The notes under the pieces: generated by a model
What the model was told of the DNA's origin: nothing
What the model saw: only the letters and a program-made list of their open reading frames with translations
Databases searched by the model: none
Program-made: the position numbers and the translations under genes
Shown here: positions 45,680 to 63,470 of the stretch, one piece after another
Position numbering within the stretch: the first letter of the stretch is position 1
Layout: every line of letters starts with the position of its first letter
Source of the DNA: Candidatus Bathyarchaeia archaeon
GTDB lineage: Archaea; Thermoproteota; Bathyarchaeia; Bathyarchaeales; Bathyarchaeaceae
Reading direction: 5' to 3'
Length of the DNA: 64,000 bases
Assembly: GCA_035283685.1 (NCBI GenBank)
Contig: DATETJ010000008.1
Span: 1 to 64,000, forward strand

Positions 45680-46183
45680 ATGTCTACACCTGAAACCTGG
45701 GCAAAGAGATTTGGAGCAATGGCTATCATCAACCTCTTGTTGACCATAGGGTGGGCGCTTCTCCCCCTCTTATACGACCCCAACATTTCACGCTACATCG
45801 CAGGCGGCTCAGCAGGCACATGGGGCTATCTCGGCTTCCTCGCCATGATCATTGGAGGTTTCACAGGATTCGCGGCATTGGCTTCACTCTACTACATAAT
45901 TCCCAAAGCGACGGGCGGCAACGTCAATAACATCCTCGCATGGCTAAACCTGGTGTTGGGAGAAGTAGGGATCATAGGGCTTTCAACGCTTCTCGGTGTT
46001 GCTGGATATATTGGAGGACAACTCATACGCGCAGGACGCGCTGCTGAAGTACACGCCGCTATAGTGTGGTTTACAGTTGAGCCATTCCCTGGACCAGTCG
46101 CCATATTCTTAGGTTTGGCTGGACTCGGAGCTTTCCTTGGAATTGTCAACCTGCTCCTAGCCTTTAGAAGCAAGAAGGTCTAA
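45680..46183 (+). CDS. hypothetical four-helix membrane protein
   Basis: A 167-residue protein with four hydrophobic helices (about 13-30, 44-75, 85-110, 138-162), rich in Gly and Ala. It has no cysteines and one His in a loop (VHAAIVW). I recognise no family. It lies between divergent transport genes and a polyprenyl synthase. Its promoter region is well defined, so it is likely expressed. Confidence 0.6.
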   Translation: MSTPETWAKRFGAMAIINLLLTIGWALLPLLYDPNISRYIAGGSAGTWGYLGFLAMIIGGFTGFAALASLYYIIPKATGGNVNNILAWLNLVLGEVGIIGLSTLLGVAGYIGGQLIRAGRAAEVHAAIVWFTVEPFPGPVAIFLGLAGLGAFLGIVNLLLAFRSKKV

Positions 46184-48491: not shown

Positions 48492-50918
48492 TTGCCTCAC
48501 AAGAAAAGCGCAAATGCGGAAAATGCGGGAAAAAAGAAGCCGGAAACAGGCGTCTACATATGTCATTGTGGCGGAAACATAAGCGACAACGTAGACGTGG
48601 TTAGAGTTAAGGAAGCCCTGACAAAGTGTAAGGGCGTCAAAGTCTGCGAAACCTACGAGTACATGTGTAGCAAACCAGGTCAGGACATGATTGAAAGAGA
48701 CATTAAAGAGCACAAGCTTAACCGAGTTGTTGTCGCATCCTGTTCCCCCCGCATGCATCTAGACACTTTTAGAGGCGCGGCAAAACGAGGCGGGCTAAAT
48801 CCGTATCTCCTCGACATGGCTAACATACGTGAGCAATGCAGTTGGGTTCACGACAACAAGGAGCTAGCCACTCAAAAAGCCACAGCAATCGTGCACGGAG
48901 TAACTGAACGTGCACAGCATCTGGAACCCTTAGAAGCAAAAAACATGCCAGTAAATCGAGACGTAGCCGTGATCGGAGGCGGGATAGCCGGCATTCTGGG
49001 CGCGATTGAACTTGCAGACAAGGGTTACAAGGTTTATTTGGTCGAGCGCAATCCGAGCATAGGCGGACACATGGCTCAGCTAAGCAAGACTTTTCCCACG
49101 CTCGACTGTTCAGCCTGCATTCTGACACCCAAAATGGTCTACGTATCGCAACACCCAAACATAGAAATAATCACGCTGGCCGAACCGATCGCTGTGAACG
49201 GTTCACCGGGCAACTACGAAGTTACGGTTCGAATTCGACCACGTTATGTTGACGTTGACAAGTGCATCTCATGCGGCGAATGTTCAAGAGTTTGCCCTGT
49301 CAAGAAACCCAGCACGCATGAAGAAGGGCTGAAACTGGAAAAATGCATCGACCTATCTTTCAAGCAAGCTGTGCCAAACGCTTATGCTATCGACAAGTCT
49401 CTTTGCCTCTGGTTCAATAAAGGGGTCTGCCGCGTCTGCGAGAAATTCTGCAAAGGCAAAGCTATTGTTTTTGACCAAAAGGAAGAAACAAGAACTCTGA
49501 ACGTGGGCGCCATAATCTCGTGTACAGGCTATCAGCAACTTACTCCAGAATCATCAAAAGAGGTCTTTAATGGTGTGAACCTGTTTGGCCAATATGCATG
49601 GGGACTTCACCCAGACGTCGTCACTAACCTTCAGTTTGAGAGACTGATGCTGCAGGGTCTTCATAGACCTTCGAACGGCAAGCCTCCCAAGAAAGTGGCA
49701 TTTGTGCTCTGCGTCGGGAGCCGAATGGACACGGGCATCACCTATTGCTGCAAAATAGGCTGCATGAACGCAATCAAGCATACTTTATTGCTTCTCAAAG
49801 CCTTTCCAGAAGCCGAGCCATGGGTATTCTACACTGACATCCGAGCGCATGGGAAAGGCTACGAGGAATTCTACTCCAACGCTCGCGACCACGGCGTCAA
49901 ATTCATACGAGGCAGAGTAGCAGAAGTTGTACCTAACGGCGACAGCCTGATCGTCAGGGCAGAAGACACGATACTAAGCAGGCGAATCGAAGAGACATTC
50001 GACATGGTTGTCCTCAGCCCAGCATTGCTTCCAAATGCTGGCACAGGCGAACTGTCCAAAATGATGGGCATTGATCTTGGACCAGACAGCTTCCTACTCG
50101 AACGACACCACAAACTGAGACCCGTCGACACCAAGATGGAAGGCATGTACATAGCCGGTTGCGCACTCGGACCAAAAGACATCAGAGAAACCACACTTGA
50201 GACCATGGCGACAGCCTCAAAAGTTGCAACTTTTCTCGGAAAAGGCGAAATTGCTGTCTCACCGGAAATCGCGTTCATCATCCCTGAAAAATGTAACTCA
50301 TGCGGTGAGTGCATCAAACACTGTCCAACTAAAGCTATAGAGCCAACGCCAAAAGGCGTATTCATAAACTCAATCTCATGCACAGGATGCGGCATATGCG
50401 TGCCCAAATGCCCCACAGAAGCCATCGAACTCAAACATTCAACTGATTCGCAACTCACTGCGCAGATTCAAGCCACAAGCATTGAGGACGGCGACCGCCC
50501 GCGGATAATCGCCTTCTTGGAGAAGACCACAGCATATGGGTCAGCAGATCTCGCGGGACAAACCAGAGTATCATATACGCCTAACGTGAAAATCATCCCG
50601 GTGCCCAGCACAGGCAGAGTAAGCTTGAAGCACGTGTTACACGCATTCGCAAGCGGAGCCGACGGCATCATATTCATCGAAGGAGACGACAGCCCCTTCA
50701 GAGAAGACAACGTCAGAGACCACGTGAACAGCATAAAAAAAGAACTGGGCAAGTACGGCGTCGAATCACTAAGAGTCATTTCCACGACAACAACACTACC
50801 ACAATACGACAAAGTAGTAAACTTGTTCCAAACCTTCGACGAAAGAATTTCGAAGATGGGACGGATATCGCCAGAGAAGCGTCAGAAGATCGCTCAAACG
50901 CTGGCAGGAGGCAAATAA
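48492..50918 (+). CDS. hdrA: heterodisulfide reductase subunit A with degenerate MvhD-like C-terminus
   Basis: An 808-residue electron-bifurcating flavoprotein core. It has the N-terminal Cys domain (YICHCGGNI), FAD site (VAVIGGGIAGILGAIELA), cluster set CISCGECSRVCP, VLCVGSRM...YCCKIGC, and two [4Fe-4S] motifs CNSCGECIKHCP and CTGCGICVPKCP (about 595-650). The last about 135 residues follow MvhD (GSADLAGQTRVSYTPNVKII, GADGIIFIEG) but have no cysteines, whereas MvhD has several. So it should not bind its 2Fe-2S cluster. Start TTG 48492, with GGTGGC upstream. First gene of hdrACB. Confidence 0.92.
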   Translation: MPHKKSANAENAGKKKPETGVYICHCGGNISDNVDVVRVKEALTKCKGVKVCETYEYMCSKPGQDMIERDIKEHKLNRVVVASCSPRMHLDTFRGAAKRGGLNPYLLDMANIREQCSWVHDNKELATQKATAIVHGVTERAQHLEPLEAKNMPVNRDVAVIGGGIAGILGAIELADKGYKVYLVERNPSIGGHMAQLSKTFPTLDCSACILTPKMVYVSQHPNIEIITLAEPIAVNGSPGNYEVTVRIRPRYVDVDKCISCGECSRVCPVKKPSTHEEGLKLEKCIDLSFKQAVPNAYAIDKSLCLWFNKGVCRVCEKFCKGKAIVFDQKEETRTLNVGAIISCTGYQQLTPESSKEVFNGVNLFGQYAWGLHPDVVTNLQFERLMLQGLHRPSNGKPPKKVAFVLCVGSRMDTGITYCCKIGCMNAIKHTLLLLKAFPEAEPWVFYTDIRAHGKGYEEFYSNARDHGVKFIRGRVAEVVPNGDSLIVRAEDTILSRRIEETFDMVVLSPALLPNAGTGELSKMMGIDLGPDSFLLERHHKLRPVDTKMEGMYIAGCALGPKDIRETTLETMATASKVATFLGKGEIAVSPEIAFIIPEKCNSCGECIKHCPTKAIEPTPKGVFINSISCTGCGICVPKCPTEAIELKHSTDSQLTAQIQATSIEDGDRPRIIAFLEKTTAYGSADLAGQTRVSYTPNVKIIPVPSTGRVSLKHVLHAFASGADGIIFIEGDDSPFREDNVRDHVNSIKKELGKYGVESLRVISTTTTLPQYDKVVNLFQTFDERISKMGRISPEKRQKIAQTLAGGK

Positions 50919-51506
50919 ATGAGTCACCGTTTTCCGCACACAATAACTGCCAAAGACGTCGACCCCACCTTCATCAAAGAGATCAAGGATTTGCCCGGCG
51001 GAAAGAATATTCTCGACTGCATTCAATGCGGCGTCTGCTCAGGCTCATGCCCCGCTCGATTCGCCATGGACTACAGTCCAATGCAAATCCTAAAAATGGC
51101 ACATCTCGGACTTAAGCAAGAGGTTCTATCAAGCCACACAATCTGGATATGCGCCTCATGCTACACCTGCGCTTCACGGTGTCCCCGCGGCTTAAACATT
51201 CCAGCCATAATGTCAGGCTTCAAGAACATGGCTCTGAAAAGCAACATACAATCTCCCGTACCTGTCAAGCCCAAATTCCACAAAGCGTTTGCAGAAATCG
51301 TGGGCAAATATGGAAGAATGCACGAAGCAGAACTAAAAGTTAAACTTGCCAACAAGACCAGTTTTAACGAGTTACTCGGCAACGCCTCTCTAGGCTTCCG
51401 TATGCTTAGAAAAGGCAAACTGAAACTGCGTCCATCAAAGCTGGATTCTTCAACCCGTTTCGCCGAGATTTTCAAGAAAGCTCAAGGCAAGGAGACTCAG
51501 AAATGA
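50919..51506 (+). CDS. hdrC: heterodisulfide reductase subunit C
   Basis: A 195-residue protein with two [4Fe-4S] motifs, CIQCGVCSGSCP and CASCYTCASRCP, and a C-terminal basic helical part. It links HdrA to HdrB. It starts at the base after the hdrA stop and overlaps hdrB by 4 bases, so the three genes form a tight operon. Confidence 0.92.
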   Translation: MSHRFPHTITAKDVDPTFIKEIKDLPGGKNILDCIQCGVCSGSCPARFAMDYSPMQILKMAHLGLKQEVLSSHTIWICASCYTCASRCPRGLNIPAIMSGFKNMALKSNIQSPVPVKPKFHKAFAEIVGKYGRMHEAELKVKLANKTSFNELLGNASLGFRMLRKGKLKLRPSKLDSSTRFAEIFKKAQGKETQK

Positions 51507-52399
51507 AATACGCGTACTTTCCAGGCTGCTCCATCCACGGCTCATCCAAAGAATACGAGATGTCGGCGAACGCCATAAACAAACGCCTAGGCATTGAACT
51601 GGTTGAGATTCCTGACTGGAACTGCTGCGGCGCCATCGACGCTGTATACGCTTACAATCCTACTTTAGCGATTTCTTTGGCAACTCGAAATCTAGCCCTG
51701 GCCGAAAACATGAAAACAGATGTCGTAACGCTTTGCAGTGCCTGTTTTTTCACTCTCTCTCGAGCAAACATGATGCTCCGCCAATACACAGACATGAAGG
51801 ACAGAGTTGACAAAGTCATCAATGATGCTGGACTCAAATACGCGGGAGATGTCAAAGTGAGGCATTACATGGACATACTGGCTAATGATGTGGGCTTTGA
51901 CAGAATCCGCCAGAACGTCACTGTTCCATTGAAAGGCTTGAAGATTGCACCATACTACGGATGCCTCATCGTGAGACCAACAGGCATACACGCGTTCGAC
52001 GATCCTGAGCATCCTGTTTCAATGGACAAGGTGGTTGAAGCCTTGGGGGCCGAGGTTGTTGATTACCCAGATAAGACTCGATGCTGCGGTGCATCATTAG
52101 CCATAACCGACGAGAAAGTTATGATGGAGATGACAAAAGCGCCGCTGCTCACGGCAAAAAACGCACAAGCCGACTGCATAGTCACCCCGTGTCCAATGTG
52201 CCACTTCAACCTTGACGCCAAGCAGAGAGACGTTGAAAAGCACTTCGATGTTGAAATAGAGCTTCCTGTGCTTTACATTACGCAACTGGTAGGCTTAGCA
52301 TTCGGTTTGCCTCCCAAGGAACTCGGACTGAACCGGAATATTGTGTCGACAAACCGGGTTATCGAAAAAGTTCAAGCACTCAGTCATGCCACACATTAG
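51503..52399 (+). CDS. hdrB: heterodisulfide reductase subunit B
   Basis: A 298-residue protein with two CCG domains. The cysteine sets are YFPGCS...NCCGAID...LCSAC and YYGCLI...RCCGASL...CPMC, which hold the non-cubane [4Fe-4S] clusters that split disulfides. In methanogens the substrate is CoM-S-S-CoB; here the disulfide is unknown. Start ATG 51503. Its 3' end faces the NirK-like gene, which converges on it at 52461. Confidence 0.93.
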   Translation: MKYAYFPGCSIHGSSKEYEMSANAINKRLGIELVEIPDWNCCGAIDAVYAYNPTLAISLATRNLALAENMKTDVVTLCSACFFTLSRANMMLRQYTDMKDRVDKVINDAGLKYAGDVKVRHYMDILANDVGFDRIRQNVTVPLKGLKIAPYYGCLIVRPTGIHAFDDPEHPVSMDKVVEALGAEVVDYPDKTRCCGASLAITDEKVMMEMTKAPLLTAKNAQADCIVTPCPMCHFNLDAKQRDVEKHFDVEIELPVLYITQLVGLAFGLPPKELGLNRNIVSTNRVIEKVQALSHATH

Positions 52400-52460: not shown

Positions 52461-53906
52461 CTAATGACCGCTTCCACTGCTAGATGATTCAGCGTTGTAG
52501 ACGTCTGGATTCGGCTGCCCAGATACTGTGAGTATTGCCAGAGCGCCTTTGTCAATGGCTCTCGTCAACGAATGGTCCACTAGGATGTAGTCCGCTGGCA
52601 CCTGTAGTTTAAATTCGACTACTGTCGCGCCTCCAGCTGGCACAAGGGTTGTTTGAACGCTCTGCAATGGCGCTGAAACTAAGTCTCCTTCAGGATATAC
52701 TCGGTCAAAGATTCCGCCTATCACGTGGAATGATGAAATCATATTTGGTCCGCCAACGCCGAAGAAGATTCGTACGGAATCGCCTACGTTAGCTTTCAAA
52801 GTGTGGTTGCCCGTTAAGCCTCTCCAGCGTCCATTGAACACTACGTATGTGGGCTCTTCGTCGTTTAGTTTCTGCGAGTCGAATTCCTGATGCCCCTGAG
52901 TTCCAACGGGCCAAAGAGTGTAGAAGTCGCCTTGCATCACATAGAACTCCTTGTCCACAGGAGTCAGTCCGCTTTCAGGTTCCACTAGTATCAAACCGTA
53001 CAAGCCGAAGGCTAGATGCGTTGGAATGTGAGGCGAAGCGCAGTGATACACGTACACGCCCGGGTTCAACGCTTTGAACGTAAACATCGTTTCTTGTCCC
53101 GGCGGCGTCTGAGTTGCTTTGGCTCCTCCTCCTGGGCCTGTTACTGCGTGAAAGTCTACTGAATGACTCATTGTGCTGTTCGCTGCGTTCCTAAAGTGCA
53201 CAACCACTGTGTCATTTGCGCGGACTCTGATGAATGGGCCTGGCACTGTGCCGTTGAAAGTCCAGAAGTTGTACGTTGTTCCCGGCTCAATCTCTGCTAT
53301 TACTTCGATGGCTTCAAGCGTTATGTGCAGCGTTGTCGAATAGTCTCGGCTCAATGGTGAAGGTAAGTCGCTTGCATTCCTTGAAATGTACGACACGCCG
53401 ACAGGCTTTGCTGGTTCTGGTTGTCTGCCGCTTCCTCTGCCGACGACTAATTGTCCCTGCATTCCAGATGCTCGGTGTCCAGGCACTGTACAGTAGTAAG
53501 CGTAAGTCCCGTCAATAGTTGCTCTGAAGGTCACCGATGCAGTTTCATCTCTCCTCATTACATGGGAAGTCTTAACGTCAAGCTCTTCGACTGCAAAGTC
53601 GTGCATCAGATTCTCGCCATTAACTATGTTGACCTTGACTGTGTCTCCAACGTTGGCTTTCAAAGTTGGATTCGCTACTCCGTCGATGCCGCCGCCGACT
53701 CCCACGTAGCCGTTAAGATAAGTTCTCAGAGTGAATTCCTGTTGTCCTCCTCCAGATTGCGCAAACAGAAACGGGTTAGTGCTGAAATAGTCGTAGGCGT
53801 TGACAACTAAGAATGATAGTAGTATCGCCAATGTGAAAAGCACTGGTGGAAACTTCAACGCTTTCAATCTGCTTCTTCTTTCTTTTTTGTTTGTTTGGTT
53901 TGTCAT
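52461..53906 (-). CDS. cupredoxin-NirK-like fusion (copper nitrite reductase family)
   Basis: A 481-residue exported protein with a membrane anchor (about 18-38). The N-terminal plastocyanin-like domain has type 1 Cu ligands His102, Cys139, His144 and Met149 (YYCTVPGHRASGM). The next two cupredoxin domains match NirK: His248, Asp251 and His253 (SHSVDFHA), His288, Cys289 and His297 (YHCASPHIPTH), catalytic-type His394 (FHVIGG) and type 2 His445 (DHSLTRA). The NirK type 1 Met is Leu302 here. All type 2 Cu ligands are kept, so nitrite reduction is possible, but the substrate is not proven. Last gene of a four-gene operon. Confidence 0.82.
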   Translation of the reverse strand: MTNQTNKKERRSRLKALKFPPVLFTLAILLSFLVVNAYDYFSTNPFLFAQSGGGQQEFTLRTYLNGYVGVGGGIDGVANPTLKANVGDTVKVNIVNGENLMHDFAVEELDVKTSHVMRRDETASVTFRATIDGTYAYYCTVPGHRASGMQGQLVVGRGSGRQPEPAKPVGVSYISRNASDLPSPLSRDYSTTLHITLEAIEVIAEIEPGTTYNFWTFNGTVPGPFIRVRANDTVVVHFRNAANSTMSHSVDFHAVTGPGGGAKATQTPPGQETMFTFKALNPGVYVYHCASPHIPTHLAFGLYGLILVEPESGLTPVDKEFYVMQGDFYTLWPVGTQGHQEFDSQKLNDEEPTYVVFNGRWRGLTGNHTLKANVGDSVRIFFGVGGPNMISSFHVIGGIFDRVYPEGDLVSAPLQSVQTTLVPAGGATVVEFKLQVPADYILVDHSLTRAIDKGALAILTVSGQPNPDVYNAESSSSGSGH

Positions 53907-53919
53907 GAGGTCATACCTC

Positions 53920-54345
53920 TTACTCTTGAGTTACTTCCAGCACTCCGTTCATGAACGGATGCATGGAACTGCAAATCGTGTTGCAGTAAAACACGAACTC
54001 GCCCGCCTCGTTGGGTGTGAACTCGAAGGCCTTTCTGTACCCCGCGTGCACTGGTCCGCTGTCAAAATCGAAATCAGGAATGACCAAGCTGTGGGTAACG
54101 TCCATGCTCATTAGCGCAAGTTTGACTGTGACGCCCTGTCTCAAGGTTATGGTGCGCGGTGTGAAGCCGCCAGCTTCTTCTGTATACATCCGTATTAACA
54201 CTTCGTCGGGTTTTGTGCCCACAAAGAAGGAGTCCAAAAGTGGTGCCGAAGCCGCGGCTACAATTGATCCCTAGAGGATGACTAATGCTAAAGCTTCCCA
54301 GAGAACCCAGCGTTTTCTTCGTCCGTCAGTACCGTTTTTGGACAT
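53920..54345 (-). CDS. exported CuA-type cupredoxin with an in-frame TAG in its signal segment
   Basis: The frame starts at ATG 54345 with a good ribosome site (AAGGTG, 7 bases away), reads MSKNGTDGRRKRWVLWEAL, then meets TAG at 54271-54273 (codon 25) and continues GSIVAAASAPLLDSFF. The rest is a CuA domain: His in VTHSLVIP and C-x3-C-x3-H-x2-M in YCNTICSSMHPFM. Without the TAG it would be a 141-residue exported protein. A TTG at 54237 could start a 105-residue form without signal peptide. CuA domains accept electrons in oxidases and N2O reductase; here the partner is likely the fused protein upstream. Confidence 0.75.
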
Positions 54346-54360
54346 GCCTGGCACCTTATC

Positions 54361-56292
54361 TCACCCCATCAGTATCGAGATAAATATTGCAGCCATCAAC
54401 GTGTGAAGCGCGCCCATCACCACGGTTCCTCTGAAGGCTTTCTTCTGATCTTTGAACAGATTCAAGCCAATGTGATGAGTAGAGATTATTGCGAGGGTAA
54501 GCCCCACAAACACGATTGGCGCTTGAATGAGCGGGATGTAGTTGGGAATGAATGGTTTCCATGCCACGCTGCCTGTTCCTAACAAGTTCCATCCCCAACC
54601 GAATGGATCAGAGAACGCACGCATCGGGTAGGCCCAGTTTACTGCAACAAGTGTGACGGCAAATGCCATCCAAAGCAGATGCCCATAAGACGAAAGCGAA
54701 TAGCTGTAAGCCAAAAACACCTGCTTGCTAGACGTTTCTCCGTCTTTCACCACTTTCTTCGCCAGCCATGAAAAGGCAAAGAAAGCTGCCGGGAAAATGA
54801 TGAGCGCAACGCTGCTCACGATGGCTGCCCATCCTAGCCAGTTTCTGAACCCACCAAGAGTCGGCATTAGCAGATGTATGGTCAATAGGTTGGCGCCCAT
54901 GTTGACTCCCATGTTGCCCCAGTCCTTGATCCAGAAGTATGGACCGAAGAAGACCAGTTGATAGAAAACGACTAGGCTGAACCGGATGAACCCCATCCAA
55001 GCTTCGTCTGTTTTCGCATGTAATCGCGCATCAATATCCTTGTCAATTGGTCTGTACTTCAGAGTCATGTTGTCAAGAGGACAAGACTTGAGGCATTCAA
55101 AACACTGTCCGCAGTAGTTGTTCCAATCTAGGCCTCCCGGATAGCGTTTCCATGGACACCCGTAGCCTTTAGGGCCTCCTCTTATACACTCTTTCGCTAC
55201 ATGTTTGTCGCATATTGCCTTGTCTTTTGACCTGACAGCTAGTAGAGAACTCGATGCGTGGTAGCCGATGTATGCACTAGCAGGGCATACGTGCAAGCAG
55301 AAATGTCGCTCGGTGTAGACTAAATGCAAAGACAAGGCTGCCAGAATCAAAATGAGGAACAGAATGCCTGAGACAACGGGTCGCGTAACCAACCAAGGAA
55401 TAATCAAGGAAATGCTCAAGAAAGCCAAGGAGGCAATCATAATGCTGTCTAGGCTTTTAGGCCACGCTTTTCTCAAAGAAAACCATTTCTTTGTCTGGTG
55501 AACGCTGTAGAGCCTGCGTCTAGCAAGCCATTCGCCGAAAGCTGGCAAAGGACAAACAGTACACCAGATTCTAGAGGCAAAGAGTATCATGAATTCAATT
55601 GCGGCGAACCAGAGTATCCAAACAACTGCTATGGAAAAATTCAGAGCGCCCATGGGGTTGCCGATGAACCCACTTGCCAAGACGATGATGAATATGAGAA
55701 GGTTGGGTAATATGAGCGCAAGATGTATGCCTCTCCACTGTAGCACGCGCTTCAACACTGGGCCAATCTTCTTGATTTTCAGCAGGTCGATCTCAAAGTC
55801 GAAAAGACGCTTCAATGGCGCGGGGCTTTGCCTAGGCTTGTTGAGATATACGATTGAGCCTACGCCGACAACTATGGTTGCGGCAAAGAACAGGTAATAC
55901 GGCGTGTTTGGCTCCACAACTATGTCTGCAACCATGAATGGATGAAGCGGACCGCAAAGCGTGGCACAGCGAATCTTGATTTTTCCCGGCTCGTTAAACT
56001 TGACTGGACCAACTTCGATTGTTTCTCCCGGTGGCACATCCGCGAAGATGTTGAATCCGTCTATGTAGAACCCATGGGTGACATCGGCGGACGTGACTCT
56101 AAAGATTACTTCTTCACCGACCCTGATGTGAATTGTCTCAGGGGTGAAGGCGAACTGTTTTGCCTCCACGTCTATAATGCGGGGTTCGGCTTGCGCTGAA
56201 GTCGGAACGAACAAGTGAGTTGAAAAGTAGATTCCTACGAGGCTGACCGCGATAATCGTTACTACGAGGATGTGCCACTTCAGATTTCTCAA
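54361..56292 (-). CDS. CuA-cupredoxin fused to a NosR/NapH-like membrane iron-sulfur protein
   Basis: A 643-residue protein. The signal or anchor (about 8-28) is followed by a CuA domain (His73; Cys109, Cys113, His117, Met120 in CATLCGPLHPFM). Helices then start near 133, and the membrane part has NosR/NapH motifs: CTVCP (244-248) and HFCLHVCP (330-337). A loop ferredoxin is CGQCFECLKSC (394-404), and there are about 8-10 transmembrane helices. The known NosR/NapH proteins carry no CuA domain, so this is a new combination. It probably moves electrons across the membrane to the copper proteins. Start TTG 56292, overlapping the upstream TGA. Confidence 0.82.
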   Translation of the reverse strand: MRNLKWHILVVTIIAVSLVGIYFSTHLFVPTSAQAEPRIIDVEAKQFAFTPETIHIRVGEEVIFRVTSADVTHGFYIDGFNIFADVPPGETIEVGPVKFNEPGKIKIRCATLCGPLHPFMVADIVVEPNTPYYLFFAATIVVGVGSIVYLNKPRQSPAPLKRLFDFEIDLLKIKKIGPVLKRVLQWRGIHLALILPNLLIFIIVLASGFIGNPMGALNFSIAVVWILWFAAIEFMILFASRIWCTVCPLPAFGEWLARRRLYSVHQTKKWFSLRKAWPKSLDSIMIASLAFLSISLIIPWLVTRPVVSGILFLILILAALSLHLVYTERHFCLHVCPASAYIGYHASSSLLAVRSKDKAICDKHVAKECIRGGPKGYGCPWKRYPGGLDWNNYCGQCFECLKSCPLDNMTLKYRPIDKDIDARLHAKTDEAWMGFIRFSLVVFYQLVFFGPYFWIKDWGNMGVNMGANLLTIHLLMPTLGGFRNWLGWAAIVSSVALIIFPAAFFAFSWLAKKVVKDGETSSKQVFLAYSYSLSSYGHLLWMAFAVTLVAVNWAYPMRAFSDPFGWGWNLLGTGSVAWKPFIPNYIPLIQAPIVFVGLTLAIISTHHIGLNLFKDQKKAFRGTVVMGALHTLMAAIFISILMG

Positions 56293-56684
56293 TTTCCTTT
56301 CCCCGCGGCGGATTCTTCTTGAAGAGCTGTGATAATCTCGTTCACTTTGATTTGGTAGGAACTCTGGTTGCCTTTGTTGCTATCCAGCTCATCCCACAGA
56401 AAACCAGCTGCATCCATACCAGCTAAATAGAGGTCGTTCGCCTCTTCAACGTTGGATGCAAATCTTCTCCCAGTATTCTCTAGGACAGAATCCAAGAGTT
56501 TGGAGCCTGCCAAGGCGCATTCTGTTTTTCTGTCGAGCTTTGCGTTCCAAGCCCTGAGAATGTAGTCGGACACGTCTTGGATTGGTCTAGTCTTCCTAAT
56601 TGACGAAGGATTTTCCTGATTCGGGAATCTGTCCCAATAATACTTGCGCAACGCTGCTTGGAGTTTTGGGATGAAGGGTTCCAT
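56289..56684 (-). CDS. hypothetical protein, first gene of the copper/iron-sulfur operon
   Basis: A 131-residue soluble, helical protein. It has no signal peptide and few cysteines (one, in ECALAGSKLLD). Its TGA overlaps the TTG start of the CuA-fusion protein by one codon, so it belongs to the operon. I recognise no family. It may be an assembly or regulatory factor. The upstream gap contains no obvious second gene. Confidence 0.7.
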   Translation of the reverse strand: MEPFIPKLQAALRKYYWDRFPNQENPSSIRKTRPIQDVSDYILRAWNAKLDRKTECALAGSKLLDSVLENTGRRFASNVEEANDLYLAGMDAAGFLWDELDSNKGNQSSYQIKVNEIITALQEESAAGKGN

Positions 56685-56881: not shown

Positions 56882-58054
56882 TTGAACGAGGATTTTGACG
56901 TTGTTGTTGTGGGTGGAGGTCCGGCTGGTCTAAGCTCAGCTAGATCTGCTGCTCTCGGAGGCGTCTCAGTCCTACTGGTTGAAAGAAAGAAGGAGATTGG
57001 AGCACAGATTCGATGCGGTGAATTCATCCCTTCCGCTGAGCAGATGAAGCCGCTTATGCCTGAGGCGAAGTCAATCTGGGACTTCTACGAGAGTAGGTTC
57101 CTGAAAGATGCTGTGAGCAATATGATCAAGAGGATACGGTTGCGCTCGCCAAAAAACAGGCCTTACGAGTTCTCTTTTGACGGTCTGGTGCTTCATCGAG
57201 ACGTATTCGAAAGGAATATTGCAGTTGAGGCTGAAGAGAGAGGCACAGTCATCCGAACAGCAACAACGGTTGAAGGCATCAAGAAAGATGTCCAAGCAGT
57301 CAAGATTGCGTTACGAGGCAGAGATTCCTCAGACTTCGTGAAAGCTAGACTTGTTGTCTGCGCTGACGGTTTCCCGTCTAAGACAGCTGAGCAGGCAGGC
57401 CTTTCAGTTAAGCCTGAGGCAGAAGACGTAGCCTTGTGTGTTGAACACCGAGTCTCAAACGCCGAGGTTGAAGAGGACCTTGTAGAGCTGTTTTTCGGTA
57501 GGAAAGTGGCGCCAGGCGGCTATGCATGGATTATACCGAAAGGTGATGGAGCTGCAAATGTGGGCCTAGGCGTGAGAACGCCATTCGTGGAACAGGGTCG
57601 TACTGCCGTGGACTACTTGGACGATTTTCTGCATACGCATCCTGTCTCATCGCCTCATTTTGTCAACGCACTGCTTGGGCCTTTGATTGGCAAGATTCTT
57701 TGTGTGAGCGGGTTAGCATCGACAGTTGTAGGTGATAGAGTTTTGTTGGCGGGTGATGCTGCTGGAACATTGATTCCTGTCAATGGCAGTGGCATTCCCA
57801 CCGCGCTGGTTTCGGGACATCTAGCTGGCGAAGTAGCGTCCAAGTTCTTGAAGGGAGATTGCGAACTTGCGGTTTACGCTGCGGCTCTGAAAAGAGAAGT
57901 TGGCAGAATCGTTGGTCGAGGTCGAACCTATTTGACTGTGGGTGATTTTTTTGCGCGTTGGGATGGCTTGTTCGAGAGGCTGTTGTGGATTATTGGGTCA
58001 AAGAATGTTGGCGTCGTCGTTAAATGTGAACCGATGCTGCCCTTGTTCAGATAG
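56882..58054 (+). CDS. geranylgeranyl reductase family flavoprotein
   Basis: A 390-residue FAD-dependent reductase with VVVVGGGPAGLSSARSAA, the GG-reductase motif (PGGYAWIIPKGDGAANVGLG) and VLLAGDAAGTLIPVNGSGI. It saturates the isoprenoid chains of archaeal membrane lipids or quinones. The reductant is a ferredoxin or F420 in related proteins. The start is TTG 56882, since the nearby ATG leads to a short frame. It lies between the copper operon and the repeat copy B. Confidence 0.87.
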   Translation: MNEDFDVVVVGGGPAGLSSARSAALGGVSVLLVERKKEIGAQIRCGEFIPSAEQMKPLMPEAKSIWDFYESRFLKDAVSNMIKRIRLRSPKNRPYEFSFDGLVLHRDVFERNIAVEAEERGTVIRTATTVEGIKKDVQAVKIALRGRDSSDFVKARLVVCADGFPSKTAEQAGLSVKPEAEDVALCVEHRVSNAEVEEDLVELFFGRKVAPGGYAWIIPKGDGAANVGLGVRTPFVEQGRTAVDYLDDFLHTHPVSSPHFVNALLGPLIGKILCVSGLASTVVGDRVLLAGDAAGTLIPVNGSGIPTALVSGHLAGEVASKFLKGDCELAVYAAALKREVGRIVGRGRTYLTVGDFFARWDGLFERLLWIIGSKNVGVVVKCEPMLPLFR

Positions 58055-58212: not shown

Positions 58213-58766
58213 TTAGAGTTGTAAGAGTGATGCCATGATTGGAGCGATGCCTAGTCCAAGGACTATTGTTAAGACCGTGGCTTTGAGTACAGCGATCATG
58301 CTTGGGTTGCTGAGTTTTTCAGCTGTTGTTTCAGTTGTTTGATCGGGGGTCTTGGTTGAGAGGATGTACCGTATTACTTGTCCATAGTAGCCGATTGACA
58401 GGCCTGTGTTGGCGATGGCGATGAGTGTAAGCCATGGTGCGATTTCGATGGTTGAGATGAAAAGGTAAAGGAACTTGCTCCAGAAGCCCAGCAGCGGGGG
58501 CAATGAACATGCCGGTGGTGGCAAGAACGTATGTTGCCAAGTGCAGAGCGATGCCTGGAATTCGGTAGAGTGCGCCTGTTCCGGAGGGGTGTGGCAGCCG
58601 CGAAGCCGACAAGAATGTAGCCTACATGGGCGATGCTGCTGTAACCCATCATACGTTGGACGTTTTTCTGAATTAATGCGGCTACGTTTCCAAACGTCAT
58701 GGTAACAATTGAAAGGGCGACGAAGAGCACTAGCCACTGAGCTTGCTCCTCTAACCCAGCGTAAGC
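58213..58766 (-). pseudogene. decayed NADH/F420H2 dehydrogenase subunit N gene
   Basis: Three frames together resemble the C-terminal half of NuoN/FpoN: LFVALSIVTMTFGNVAALIQKN and GYSSIAHVGYILVGFAA in one frame, then GIALHLATYVLATTGMFIA, then PPLLGFWSKFLYLFI. Frame changes occur near 58590 and 58500, and about 45 residues between TGMFIA and PPLLGFW are missing. The N-terminal half (about 250 residues) is absent. It is a clear pseudogene; no other complex I gene is nearby. Confidence 0.8.
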
Positions 58767-58772
58767 GACGTC

Positions 58773-59006
58773 GTGGACGACTATGATGTTGCTGGGTATG
58801 TGCAGAACAAGTTTCATGTGACAGTCGAGCCAGAAAGCATGCACTCTATCTTGGATGTTTTGGAGAAAAATGAACTAATAGAGAGTGAGGAAATCCACAA
58901 GAAAAAGGTCTATGCGCTAACTGAAAAGAGTAAAGAAACTGTCAAAACCGTTCCAAACTCGAGAGACAAGATCTTGGGTTTAGTGTTAAACATTTTAGCA
59001 GGATGA
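58773..59006 (+). CDS. winged-helix-like fragment (77 aa)
   Basis: From GTG 58773 a 77-residue frame reads DYDVAGYVQNKF, then VEPESMHSILDVLEKNELIE and KKKVYALTEKSKETV, like the wing and second half of a PadR/MarR-type winged helix. It begins only 7 bases after the pseudogene boundary, so it may be a truncated regulator or a chimera. A stop codon lies 7 codons upstream in frame. Confidence 0.4.
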   Translation: MDDYDVAGYVQNKFHVTVEPESMHSILDVLEKNELIESEEIHKKKVYALTEKSKETVKTVPNSRDKILGLVLNILAG

Positions 59007-59174: not shown

Positions 59175-60026
59175 TTACTGAGCTGCTTGCAGAATTTTGG
59201 ATGGGTCGACTCTGAGTTCTTTTATGGCTAGTTCGTCTGGGCTCATGCCCATAGCCAAGCCTAGCAACTGCGTGTAGTGCAGCACTGGAAGGTTGTAGGT
59301 TTCATTAAAGGCTCGCTCAATCCGCGACTGATTGACATCGAACATAAGGTGGCATGATGGGCAAACTGTTATCAAAGCCTCTGCGCCTACTGCCTTCACG
59401 TGGCTTAGCTTTTCTCGTGTGAGTTGAAGGGAAACTTTGTCGTCTACGGCTATAACGGTGTAGCCGCAGCACTCGGCTTCGTCCATGTAGTCTAAGCATT
59501 TGGCACCGGTTAATTTTATCAAATCCTTCAATGTCTGCGGGTCTTCTGGGTTGTCCCAGCCCATATATTTGACTGGTCGGAGAAGGTGGCATCCCGCGTG
59601 TTCGGCAACCTTCATCCAGGTGAGCGGTTTTTGAACCGTGTTTTTTATTCTTTCGTATCCGATGTCTTCTTTTAAGGCTTGAACCATGTGTTTTACTTCA
59701 ATGGTGCCCTTGAACTCCATGCCAATCTGCTTCAGGATTCCGTTGATTTCGTCCCTCATTTTCTTGTCTGTTTTCAACAGTTTGTTTGTTTTTCGCAGGG
59801 TTGTGGCGCATCCAGTGCACAGCGTGATTACGTTTAGGTTTTGTTGTTCGGCTAGGCACAGGTTTCGTGCTGACAGCGCAAGCGTCATTTCGTGGTTTGC
59901 TGGGTCAACTGGGAGACCGCAGCAGTTTGCGTCAGGCATTTCGACCAGTTCTACCTCTAGTTTGTCAAAGACCTTACGGGCAGAAATCTCGTAGCTTGCT
60001 TCTCGGTAGGGGATGGTGCAGCCCAA
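59175..60026 (-). CDS. hdrB: heterodisulfide reductase subunit B-like (second copy)
   Basis: A 283-residue CCG-domain protein. Cysteine sets are LGCTIPYRE, NCCGLPVD, LCTGC, AGCHLLRP, ECCGYTV and CPSC. Homology with HdrB extends 4 residues upstream as KYAFFLG, preceded by TTA instead of a normal start; TTG 60026 (inside FFLGC) is the first usual start codon and would trim the protein. It follows HdrC2 by about 35 bases and is probably co-expressed. No second HdrA is present. Confidence 0.88.
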   Translation of the reverse strand: MGCTIPYREASYEISARKVFDKLEVELVEMPDANCCGLPVDPANHEMTLALSARNLCLAEQQNLNVITLCTGCATTLRKTNKLLKTDKKMRDEINGILKQIGMEFKGTIEVKHMVQALKEDIGYERIKNTVQKPLTWMKVAEHAGCHLLRPVKYMGWDNPEDPQTLKDLIKLTGAKCLDYMDEAECCGYTVIAVDDKVSLQLTREKLSHVKAVGAEALITVCPSCHLMFDVNQSRIERAFNETYNLPVLHYTQLLGLAMGMSPDELAIKELRVDPSKILQAAQ

Positions 60027-60060
60027 GAAGAAAGCATATTTTAACTGTGCCAGCTGAGCC

Positions 60061-60591
60061 CTACCTCTTTAAGAGTTTTGAACCGTGCGTGAGTTCAATC
60101 AGTTTGGCAACATCAGCCTTTTTTGGTTTGGGCAAGGGCGGCAAACCCGTCTCTTCGCGTTTCTTGTGTTTGATTTCAGGAATCTTGTAGGCGTAGCCTG
60201 TCTCATTGATGTTGTTGGCGAGTTCTCTGTAAATCACTGGAACCTCTCCGCTCTTAACCGCCAGATTTCTGAGAACACGCAAAACGTTTGCAACTTCGAC
60301 GCCTTGAGGGCATCGGTCGGTGCACGCGAAGCAGGCGGTGCAGAGCCACAGCGTGGGACTTGACAAAACTCTCTGCCTCAGACCCAACTGTGTCATGCGC
60401 AGCACTGTTCTTGGTCGATATGTGCTACTGAAGCGTGCGGTTGGGCAGCTTGATGTGCAGGTTCCGCACTGAAAACATGTCTTTAATGTTTCGGCGTCGT
60501 GTTCCCTCAAGACTTCATTCTTGAATGATGGGTCCAGCCTTGATGGTTGAGCATTCTTCCTCGTTTCCGTTGTTGCTGTTGTTTGTGCCAT
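60061..60591 (-). CDS. hdrC: heterodisulfide reductase subunit C-like (second copy)
   Basis: A 176-residue protein with CFQCGTCTSSCP and CTACFACTDRCP, and a basic C-terminal tail (KPKKADVAKLIE). A Thr/Gln-rich N-terminus of about 20 residues precedes the domain. It forms an HdrCB pair with the next gene. The pair may take electrons from the copper/iron-sulfur system or share the single HdrA. It ends in TAG. Confidence 0.9.
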   Translation of the reverse strand: MAQTTATTETRKNAQPSRLDPSFKNEVLREHDAETLKTCFQCGTCTSSCPTARFSSTYRPRTVLRMTQLGLRQRVLSSPTLWLCTACFACTDRCPQGVEVANVLRVLRNLAVKSGEVPVIYRELANNINETGYAYKIPEIKHKKREETGLPPLPKPKKADVAKLIELTHGSKLLKR

Positions 60592-61037: not shown

Positions 61038-61913
61038 TTGCTTAGCTCACTGCGAAGCTACGTTGAAGTGGCAAAACCTAGAATTGTCCTCCTGCTCGTG
61101 TTCACCTCTGCAGTTGCGATGGCTGTGGCTGCGGCTTCAAGTTCTACTGCATTGCCGTACGAAGCGTGGGCTCTTGCGCTAATCGGTATAGCCGCAGGGT
61201 GCGCCGGCTGCAACGCTGTCACCTCTTACATCGACAGAGACATAGACTCAATCATGGTCAGAACAAAAAAGAGACCTTTGCCTTCTCGAAAGATCGATCC
61301 GCCTAAGAAAGCCCTCTATCTTGGCATATTTCTCATTATGGTGTCTCTTCTTGTGGCTGGTCTACGGAACTATCTGTCTTTCATCGCCGTTGCGTTAGGG
61401 GTTCTTGACAATGTTGTGGTCTACAGCCTTCTGCTCAAGAGGAGAGACCCGTTGAACATAATTCTGGGCGGAATTAGCGGAGGCTTGCCCGTCATATACG
61501 GCTGGGCCTACACAACCAATAGCATCAACCTTATGGCAGTTTTGATGGCTGCTATCGTGATTGTTTGGACGCCAAATCACATTTGGAGCCTAGCCTTAAG
61601 GTTCAAAGAAGACTACCAAAAAGTCAACGTGCCAATGCTGCCCGCGATTGTTGAGGAAAAAGTGGCTATCAGATTTATTGTGGCAACATCTATGCTCTTG
61701 GTGATTCTTTCGCTGGCACTTTTCTTTATGGGGGTTTTCCAATCGTTCTACTTGCTGGTCGCACTTTCTCTGGGAACGGTAACAACTGCAATCAACCTTT
61801 GGCTATTCTTCAAACCTACACGAAGAGCGGCATGGTTTGTATTCAAATTCTCCAGTCCATACTTAGCCGTTATTTTTCTCGCAATGATGATAGACGTTGT
61901 CTTGCGGTACTGA
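61038..61913 (+). CDS. ctaB: protoheme IX farnesyltransferase (heme O synthase)
   Basis: A 291-residue UbiA-superfamily protein with about 9 transmembrane helices. The first Asp motif is NAVTSYIDRDIDSIMVRTKK, followed by RPLPSRKI; WTPNHIWSLALRFKEDY is specific to CtaB/heme O synthases. Heme O is needed for haem-copper oxidases, but none is in this window; together with the CuA proteins it suggests such a chain or its remnant. Start TTG 61038. Confidence 0.88.
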   Translation: MLSSLRSYVEVAKPRIVLLLVFTSAVAMAVAAASSSTALPYEAWALALIGIAAGCAGCNAVTSYIDRDIDSIMVRTKKRPLPSRKIDPPKKALYLGIFLIMVSLLVAGLRNYLSFIAVALGVLDNVVVYSLLLKRRDPLNIILGGISGGLPVIYGWAYTTNSINLMAVLMAAIVIVWTPNHIWSLALRFKEDYQKVNVPMLPAIVEEKVAIRFIVATSMLLVILSLALFFMGVFQSFYLLVALSLGTVTTAINLWLFFKPTRRAAWFVFKFSSPYLAVIFLAMMIDVVLRY

Positions 61914-61925
61914 GCGAACCGCGCT

Positions 61926-63470
61926 TTAGGTTTGCATTGTCTTTTTTAGTCCTAGGAAAATGTTCTTTTGTCGTTCCATGCCCTTGTACGCGTTTACTGT
62001 AAAGAGCGCATAAACAGCGCCTATAAGAATAGCATATGCAAGGTTCTCGGTTCCAAACCCTTCAACCAAGTACCCTAGAGACAGAAGCAAACCTGTAGAA
62101 AGATGACAGATTATGGTTGAAACATTAGCAGGAATCAATTCAAAGGAACTTGAATGATGTTTGAGCGCATATCTAATTGCCTTCAACGCCAGAGGTAGTG
62201 TGGCAAGCCCAAGCAAGGTGTAAACTGGCAGTATTCTGATAAGAACCCCTATGGCTACGACCACATAAGTTCCTAGCATTATAGCCGCGTATCCGTAAGC
62301 CGCTTTGCCTCTACCTAGCCGAACCACCAGTGTGTTCTTGCCAACAGCTTTGTCAGCTGCGTAGTCGGGAAACTCGTTAATGTACACAACGGCAGCGATG
62401 AGCAGCGAGACAGGAATTGAAGCAATCAAAGGTTCAGTTGCCAATATTCGAGTCTGGACATAAAAAGACCCCGCAGTCAGCAACATTCCAAAGTTCAGTC
62501 CGATCAGGAGCTCTCCAACTCCTCTGCCAGCCCAGTTGACATGAGGAGCCACGTAGAAAAACCCTGAAATCAAACCTATCAGTCCTAAGAGCAACACGAC
62601 AGGTCCAACTGTCCACGTCAAGTAGAGACCGATTGAAATGCCAAGAGCATACAAAAGCAAAGCTTCAGACAACACTTCAAGCGGCGTCATGAGTCCCAAC
62701 TGAATCATCCTGCTGCCTCCGCTGAACGGTCTCACAAACTCTCGGTTTACTTCGTCGTTGCCGCTCGTGTAGTCAAAATAATCGTTTATGACATTGGTGC
62801 CGGCGTGAAGACAAAGTCCTCCCAAAAGTGTCAACAGGAAAAAGGTAAAGTCAAACGCGCCGTTCCTTACCCATGCAATTGATGTCCCTAAGAGAATCGA
62901 AACAATTGTTGCAGTGAAAAAAGCCCCTCTGAGCTCAAGTCCCCAAAGCTTTAGCTTATGTCCAAGCTTGGGAAACTCGCTTTCCGCAACTCTATTTTGC
63001 GCAAACTCTAACACCGTAGGGGGAAGCCCCTGCACAATCTCATTGAAAACACGATACTTCACAACGGTGGGAACAACTTTTACACAGTCCAGCACACCCA
63101 AATTCCCGGTGTCGTTTAAGTACTTGACAACTGGCGATTTTTCAGCCAAAGACTTGAAAGCCCGATTCTTCTCATCACCCTCCTTGACAAGGAATGCGCG
63201 TCCTGTGACTTCAACTTCGCTCGAGTCGTTAACGCCGCCGGTACGCTTCGAGATCAATAAGGAAATCGAGGGATTATGAGTTATCTGCAGAGTCTTTGGG
63301 TCACCCTTCATTGTGGCTAAATAGACGTTCAAGTTTTCATCGCTCCAGTAATGCATCATCCTAGAGCGTATATCAACGCCAGAAGCTGTGGCTACAACGG
63401 CGCAGTCAATGTTGTTCAATACAGATAGGATTTCTTCTTTGGTGTGAGATTGCTGCAACTCGGAGGTCAC
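61926..63470 (-). CDS. flavin-split-barrel/UbiA (MenA-type) prenyltransferase fusion
   Basis: A 514-residue protein. Residues about 1-150 form a pyridoxamine-5'-phosphate-oxidase-like FMN split barrel (CAVVATASGVDIRSRMMHYW). Residues about 180-510 form a MenA-like prenyltransferase, with NVINDYFDYTSGND and a second motif NEFPDYAADKAVGKNTLVVRLG. So a quinone head-group prenylation step is linked to a flavin or F420 domain. It converges on ctaB, with a gap of 12 bases. Confidence 0.83.
   Translation of the reverse strand: MTSELQQSHTKEEILSVLNNIDCAVVATASGVDIRSRMMHYWSDENLNVYLATMKGDPKTLQITHNPSISLLISKRTGGVNDSSEVEVTGRAFLVKEGDEKNRAFKSLAEKSPVVKYLNDTGNLGVLDCVKVVPTVVKYRVFNEIVQGLPPTVLEFAQNRVAESEFPKLGHKLKLWGLELRGAFFTATIVSILLGTSIAWVRNGAFDFTFFLLTLLGGLCLHAGTNVINDYFDYTSGNDEVNREFVRPFSGGSRMIQLGLMTPLEVLSEALLLYALGISIGLYLTWTVGPVVLLLGLIGLISGFFYVAPHVNWAGRGVGELLIGLNFGMLLTAGSFYVQTRILATEPLIASIPVSLLIAAVVYINEFPDYAADKAVGKNTLVVRLGRGKAAYGYAAIMLGTYVVVAIGVLIRILPVYTLLGLATLPLALKAIRYALKHHSSSFELIPANVSTIICHLSTGLLLSLGYLVEGFGTENLAYAILIGAVYALFTVNAYKGMERQKNIFLGLKKTMQT

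Follow-up and report, generated by a model that had tools for sequence, protein, structure and literature searches.

A 64,000-nucleotide stretch of a Candidatus Bathyarchaeia archaeon genome (contig DATETJ010000008.1, referred to here as the window) carries a minus-strand operon of four genes that encode a small helical protein, a CuA-NapH fusion protein, a second and smaller CuA protein, and a copper nitrite reductase (NirK). We propose, with a probability of about two-thirds, that this operon specifies a membrane-bound electron transfer complex that feeds NirK. Judged from sequence, the first three genes form a module whose order is conserved in three archaeal phyla, and the window NirK sits in the module's fourth slot and carries the membrane anchor of that slot. 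Every part except the helical subunit has known relatives, and the module as a whole appears to be new: no account of the CuA-NapH module, the helical subunit, or the shared anchor was found in the openly accessible literature, which excludes most subscription journals. The window was analyzed by translation, family profile searches, and structure models, and searches of the genome proceeded one family at a time.

The operon and its conserved module

The original prediction described four closely spaced minus-strand genes of these types converging on hdrACB, and translation and profile matches bear out both their positions and their families (Table 1). From the helical gene to nirK, the genes are separated by a 4-base-pair (bp) overlap, 15 bp, and 13 bp. 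Gaps of 15 bases or fewer had been claimed; the overlap and the 13-bp gap stand, but the 15-base gap exists only if an in-frame TAG in the small CuA gene is read through. The nirK stop codon lies 61 bp from that of hdrB, the last gene of the plus-strand hdrA-hdrC-hdrB run (48492 to 52399). Scans of the window with sigma-70-type promoter and terminator models stayed at chance level, and such models do not fit archaeal promoters. A plasmid collection search returned low-identity, partial matches only.

The CuA ligands (H, CxxxCxxxHxxM) are complete in both CuA domains; in CuA-NapH they are H73, C109, C113, H117, and M120. The CuA-NapH model (predicted local distance difference test [pLDDT] score, 93.3; predicted template modeling [pTM] score, 0.93) has 11 helices, with the CuA domain between helices 1 and 2. 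A fold search with the model matched the CuA fold to that of Thermus ba3 CuA; the CuA domain alone was matched, and no solved relative of the membrane part was among the matches listed. The NapH part holds 11 cysteines, C244 and C247 (Cx2CP), C332 and C336 (Cx3CP), C361, C369, C379, C394, C397, C400, and C404, each kept in at least 88 of 90 relatives. CxnCP motifs, the first being Cx2CP rather than Cx3CP, and two 4Fe-4S motifs are present. The predicted topology places all 11 cysteines in inside loops, which are richer in lysine and arginine, and the CuA domain outside. Because its NapH family score (TIGR02163, 36 bits) is far under the cutoff of 213, we describe the protein as NapH-like and do not file it as NapH. 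The two CuA proteins also fall under the CoxB cutoff of 148 bits for oxidase subunit II (52 and 38 bits), and no oxidase subunit I gene lies beside the CuA genes, the COX1-type matches of the genome being atypical proteins. The AlphaFold2 model of the helical subunit has five helices (pLDDT, 88.8), and a fold search with it against the PDB gave no significant match (best E value of 0.08, to part of Cas10d).

A search for the CuA-NapH family, which is broad, returned 80 loci from Archaea, Chloroflexi, Planctomycetes, and others. The conserved DPFGWGW motif is partly an artifact, since the motif was itself one of the search patterns, and Sulfolobales-like matches, which were rejected, occupy an unrelated setting (L158). 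The order helical gene, CuA-NapH, CuA is kept in Thermoplasmatota (L073), Archaeoglobi (L074, L211, and L212), and Thermoproteota (L153), with the helical homolog directly upstream of CuA-NapH in each. The window, L153, L073, L074, L075, and L211 to L214 form a clade with support of 1.0. Members with enough upstream contig have the helical gene directly upstream or, in L213 and L214, encode the helical domain as part of a fusion with a membrane protein; each has the small CuA gene downstream, as a degenerate copy in L213 and L214. These two Archaeoglobi loci also have a dimethyl sulfoxide reductase family molybdoenzyme upstream, and their CuA ligands are degenerate. Synteny in relatives, which had been suggested as a check on the operon, thus holds for three of the four genes; NirK stands outside the conserved order and was seen only here.

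The same genome contains a second, intact operon with a tandem CuA protein, a CuA-NapH fusion (38% identical), and a cupredoxin. A search of 163 genomes from the organism's order turned up no further full-length CuA-NapH, the remaining matches being short and weak, and none of the listed genomes with NirK matches in a phylum-wide sample of 398 genomes belongs to that order. The failure to find the module or NirK in other members of the order suggests horizontal gain.

The nitrite reductase, its anchor, and an interrupted CuA gene

The window NirK passes the TIGR02376 equivalog model (361.1 bits; cutoff, 296.3), and its residues 57 to 470 align in one stretch to 6tfd (E value of 9e-135) and 2dv6 (1.5e-133). 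The type 2 copper ligands H253, H288, and H445 and the catalytic residues D251 and H394 are all present, as is the H-C-H-M ligand set of the N-terminal cupredoxin. In the core type 1 site, H248, C289, and H297 are kept and the axial Met is Leu302; cupredoxin sites with an axial Leu are still able to bind copper. We regard the gene product as a true copper nitrite reductase that is predicted to convert nitrite to nitric oxide. Nitrite had been offered only as a possible final acceptor, and the curated cutoff and the intact type 2 site make a stronger case for it than was claimed. The view that the cupredoxin-NirK fusion is unusual did not survive, as such fusions are already known from the Hyphomicrobium type. 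From known cupredoxin chemistry, the axial Leu would shift the potential of the core type 1 site and might signal another substrate of a multicopper-type enzyme in place of nitrite; with the family cutoff passed and the type 2 histidines, Asp251, and His394 kept, we consider this most improbable.

In six operons (L074, L211, L212, L213, L214, and L073), a protein with a KFPPVxFFxxILI-type N-terminal anchor is encoded after the small CuA gene, with an SCO1-like gene in between in L073. A profile of this FPPV anchor was built from the fourth genes of five other operons. It matched the NirK N terminus among the window open reading frames (E value of 4.4e-9) and among 7500 open reading frames (1.4e-7, against 0.065 for the best nonmember), and it also found L212 independently (5e-8). 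Three further NirK proteins (L202 to L204) were compared and lack the anchor. This profile match, together with the lack of the anchor in the other NirK proteins, assigns the window NirK to the fourth slot, and the shared anchor, evidence at the level of sequence only, is the strongest new pointer to NirK as a physical part of the complex.

Relatives of the module have other partners. In L153, another Thermoproteota genome, the module lies downstream of a CuA-cytochrome d1 fusion (PF02239, 332 bits) with gaps of 2, 6, and 6 bp, and nitrite reduction by this fusion is possible. This beta-propeller neighbor was also considered as a lactonase-type NosZ and rejected, given a NosZ score of 136, far under the cutoff of 700, and the Pfam assignment to cytochrome d1. 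True NosZ is encoded near the module in the more distant relatives L077, L118, and L081. Because relatives have other domains in the slot or other reductases beside the module, NirK probably joined by recombination, and the module would be the older of the two. Hemerythrin genes occur in the vicinity of L153 and L088, and another contig of the window's own genome encodes a flavodiiron protein resembling the nitric oxide reductase type beside a hemerythrin.

The in-frame TAG (54273 to 54271, minus strand) falls in the middle of the predicted anchor helix of the small CuA protein. As the flanking residues can be aligned to the corresponding helix in eight relatives, the codon interrupts a real anchor; the uninterrupted open reading frame (53920 to 54237, with a TTG start at 54237) lacks it. 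Pyrrolysine was considered at this position and rejected, because no pyrrolysyl-tRNA synthetase (PylS) over the cutoff was found in the genome. With nirK itself ending in TAG, the codon is most likely a stop in this genome, and its presence here could reflect decay or an assembly error. The locus could accordingly be read as a decaying horizontal acquisition, in which the module is defunct and NirK may be a stand-alone nitrite-detoxifying enzyme, and the absence of the module and NirK elsewhere in the order and a possibly frameshifted NuoN-like remnant nearby would fit. Against this, the remaining three genes are uninterrupted and keep their ligands, misassembly may account for the stop, and the genome has its second, intact CuA-NapH operon, so that we judge decay unlikely.

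Proposed electron path, possible donors, and neighboring genes

In the complex that we propose, iron-sulfur clusters of the NapH-type subunit would receive electrons on the cytoplasmic face of the membrane, with quinol or a cytoplasmic carrier as the donor, and the electrons would cross to the CuA domain that the same protein carries outside. From there they would pass to the second, membrane-anchored CuA protein, next to the NirK cupredoxin, and finally to the type 2 copper, where family and ligands predict reduction of nitrite to nitric oxide. The FPPV anchor shared with the fourth subunits of other operons would hold NirK on the complex. This path agrees with the original prediction from the membrane iron-sulfur protein through external CuA to the cupredoxin-NirK, which is still the best reading; the thiol or ferredoxin donor that it named is plausible, but quinol is equally good.

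The case for quinol comes from the NapH likeness and from quinone-tail genes. NapH is reported to oxidize menaquinol and to carry a pair of Cx3CP motifs along with two 4Fe-4S clusters (PMC3475470), and genes for menA, GGPS, and geranylgeranyl reductase lie near the module both here and in L073. Alternatively, the donors could be low-potential cytoplasmic carriers (ferredoxin, F420H2, or thiols via HdrABC), with the membrane protein acting as a transmembrane bridge and all later steps unchanged. Topology favors such a donor, with every NapH-part cysteine inside, as do the neighbors in more distant relatives: in L136 (Methanoperedens), an FpoF/FrhB-type F420H2 subunit is encoded between the CuA and NapH genes (L136:7890-10834), and in L154, HdrA, HdrC, and HdrB are encoded directly upstream of CuA/NapH on the same strand, with POR also upstream; the convergent hdrACB of the window would fit as well. 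L136 and L154 fall outside the window's own clade in the tree, and these neighbors, taken as hints only, stand against the reported role of NapH and the flanking quinone-tail genes. We give the cytoplasmic donor somewhat less than an even chance.

A functional tie between hdrACB and the operon, as first supposed, was not upheld. No conserved co-transcription or fusion with HdrACB was found, the genes being convergent in the window and adjacent on the same strand in L154 only, which is a single analogous case from another clade. The link in the window is weak and one of proximity only. Upstream of the operon, the minus strand carries a second hdrB/hdrC-like pair (59175 to 60591).

Neighboring genes also bear on whether CuA-NapH and the small CuA protein function in the assembly of copper sites or the handling of copper instead of in respiration. 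By inspection, a copper-ATPase-like gene in L212 would agree with this, as would the SCO1-like gene of L073 and the metal-transporting ATPase-like genes near several bacterial copies. Adjacency to NosZ, CuA-cytochrome d1, NirK, Hdr, and F420H2 genes and the retention of two ferredoxin-type cluster motifs throughout argue for respiration, and a copper-handling role seems to us quite improbable.

Several observations weigh against a membrane-bound complex that feeds NirK. Both the source of the electrons and their passage across the membrane are inferred. The small CuA gene has its in-frame stop, by which the complex may be broken here unless the assembly is wrong at that point, and the core type 1 axial position is Leu in this NirK and Met in the relatives compared. 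Among the genomes examined, NirK accompanies the module in this one only. The L153 d1 domain is nearer by sequence to NirN/NirF than to NirS and may not reduce nitrite, and the degenerate copper sites of L213 and L214 indicate that the module need not always carry copper.

Table 1. Coordinates of the operon, its parts, and related or neighboring genes (window positions unless a locus is named)
Feature	Location	Strand	Remarks
Helical subunit	56289..56684	-	131 amino acids; no known family
CuA-NapH fusion	54361..56292	-	643 amino acids; TTG start overlapping helical stop; 11-helix NapH-type membrane iron-sulfur protein
External CuA domain of CuA-NapH	55909..56181	-	About residues 38-128; COX2 and ba3 CuA matches
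NapH-part cysteine region of CuA-NapH	55081..55563	-	11 cysteines
Small CuA gene	53920..54345	-	Conserved frame from ATG 54345; COX2 match
nirK	52461..53906	-	481 amino acids; membrane anchor, N-terminal cupredoxin, copper nitrite reductase core
FPPV membrane anchor of NirK	53778..53864	-	Residues 15-43; profile match
hdrA	48492..50918	+	Convergent neighbor, link uncertain; NF040770 HdrA2 827 bits, under 1100 cutoff
hdrC	50919..51506	+	Family match; convergent neighbor, link uncertain
hdrB	51503..52399	+	Family match; convergent neighbor, link uncertain
Geranylgeranyl reductase family gene	56882..58054	+	TIGR02032 over cutoff; divergent from operon
menA-like prenyltransferase (quinone synthesis)	61926..63470	-	N-terminal PNPOx domain; TIGR00751 104.0 bits, cutoff 102.15
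CuA-cytochrome d1 fusion	L153:1442-3211		First gene of same module in another Thermoproteota genome
Second CuA-NapH operon	L006:8498-12138 (own genome C9, about 380498-384138)		Cupredoxin resembles one beside CuA-NapH in L099

Other genes of the window and genome were also recorded. Two overlapping minus-strand frames at 58213 to 58844 are each NuoN-like in part, perhaps as a frameshifted remnant; one of these frames was searched against Pfam and had no match. Two atypical COX1-like proteins are encoded at window positions 45680 to 46183 and at L042:8392-9903. The one of 503 amino acids has three separate stretches that match the COX1 profile, and it is encoded near a flavodiiron protein and a hemerythrin. 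A heme o synthase over the cutoff is encoded at 61038 to 61913, although searches of the genome yielded no subunit I of an ordinary heme-copper oxidase.

Significance and comparison with known systems

Taken as a whole, the system would be of the denitrification electron-feeding kind, built from copper and iron-sulfur parts. Tentatively, and at rather less than even odds, we read it as an undescribed archaeal respiratory complex in which the helical, CuA-NapH, and CuA proteins are a fixed wire and the FPPV-anchored fourth subunit is an exchangeable socket, occupied by NirK here and by other domains in relatives; nitrite respiration would then run through a membrane-tethered iron-sulfur and copper chain without cytochromes. 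The recurrence of the carrier part in other archaea with different partners suggests such a plug-in respiratory module. How nitrite and nitrous oxide reductases are fed in archaea without cytochrome c is poorly known, and a module with an exchangeable terminal reductase would, if real, help to explain it. It would also provide a marker for nitrite- and nitrous oxide-using archaea in metagenomes and a natural case of a membrane-tethered NirK with a testable electron path.

Known NapH/NosR quinol dehydrogenases of nitrate and nitrous oxide respiration feed an external reductase. The window protein shares with them its membrane location, CxnCP motifs, and two ferredoxin-type cluster motifs, but differs in its 11 predicted helices, its length of 643 amino acids, and its fused CuA domain. 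Compared with subunit II of Thermus ba3 oxidase and the CuA domain of NosZ, the window CuA has the same predicted fold and the full ligand set, whereas it has no attached oxidase or CuZ domain and scores under the oxidase and NosZ family cutoffs. The window NirK has the same domain order over its full length as the three-domain NirK of Hyphomicrobium denitrificans (2dv6 and 6tfd), with the N-terminal type 1 copper and the type 2 site also in common; it adds the module-shared membrane anchor and has Leu in place of Met as the axial residue of its core type 1 site. About 24 Å separate the N-terminal and core type 1 coppers of the Hyphomicrobium enzymes (PMC7201279), so that even there it is unsettled how electrons are relayed inside NirK. 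In the chimeric nitrite reductases of Chloroflexi, cupredoxin, cytochrome c, and NirS/NirK domains have likewise been shuffled, and the available portion of their description mentions no CuA-NapH module or helical subunit (PMC8756737).

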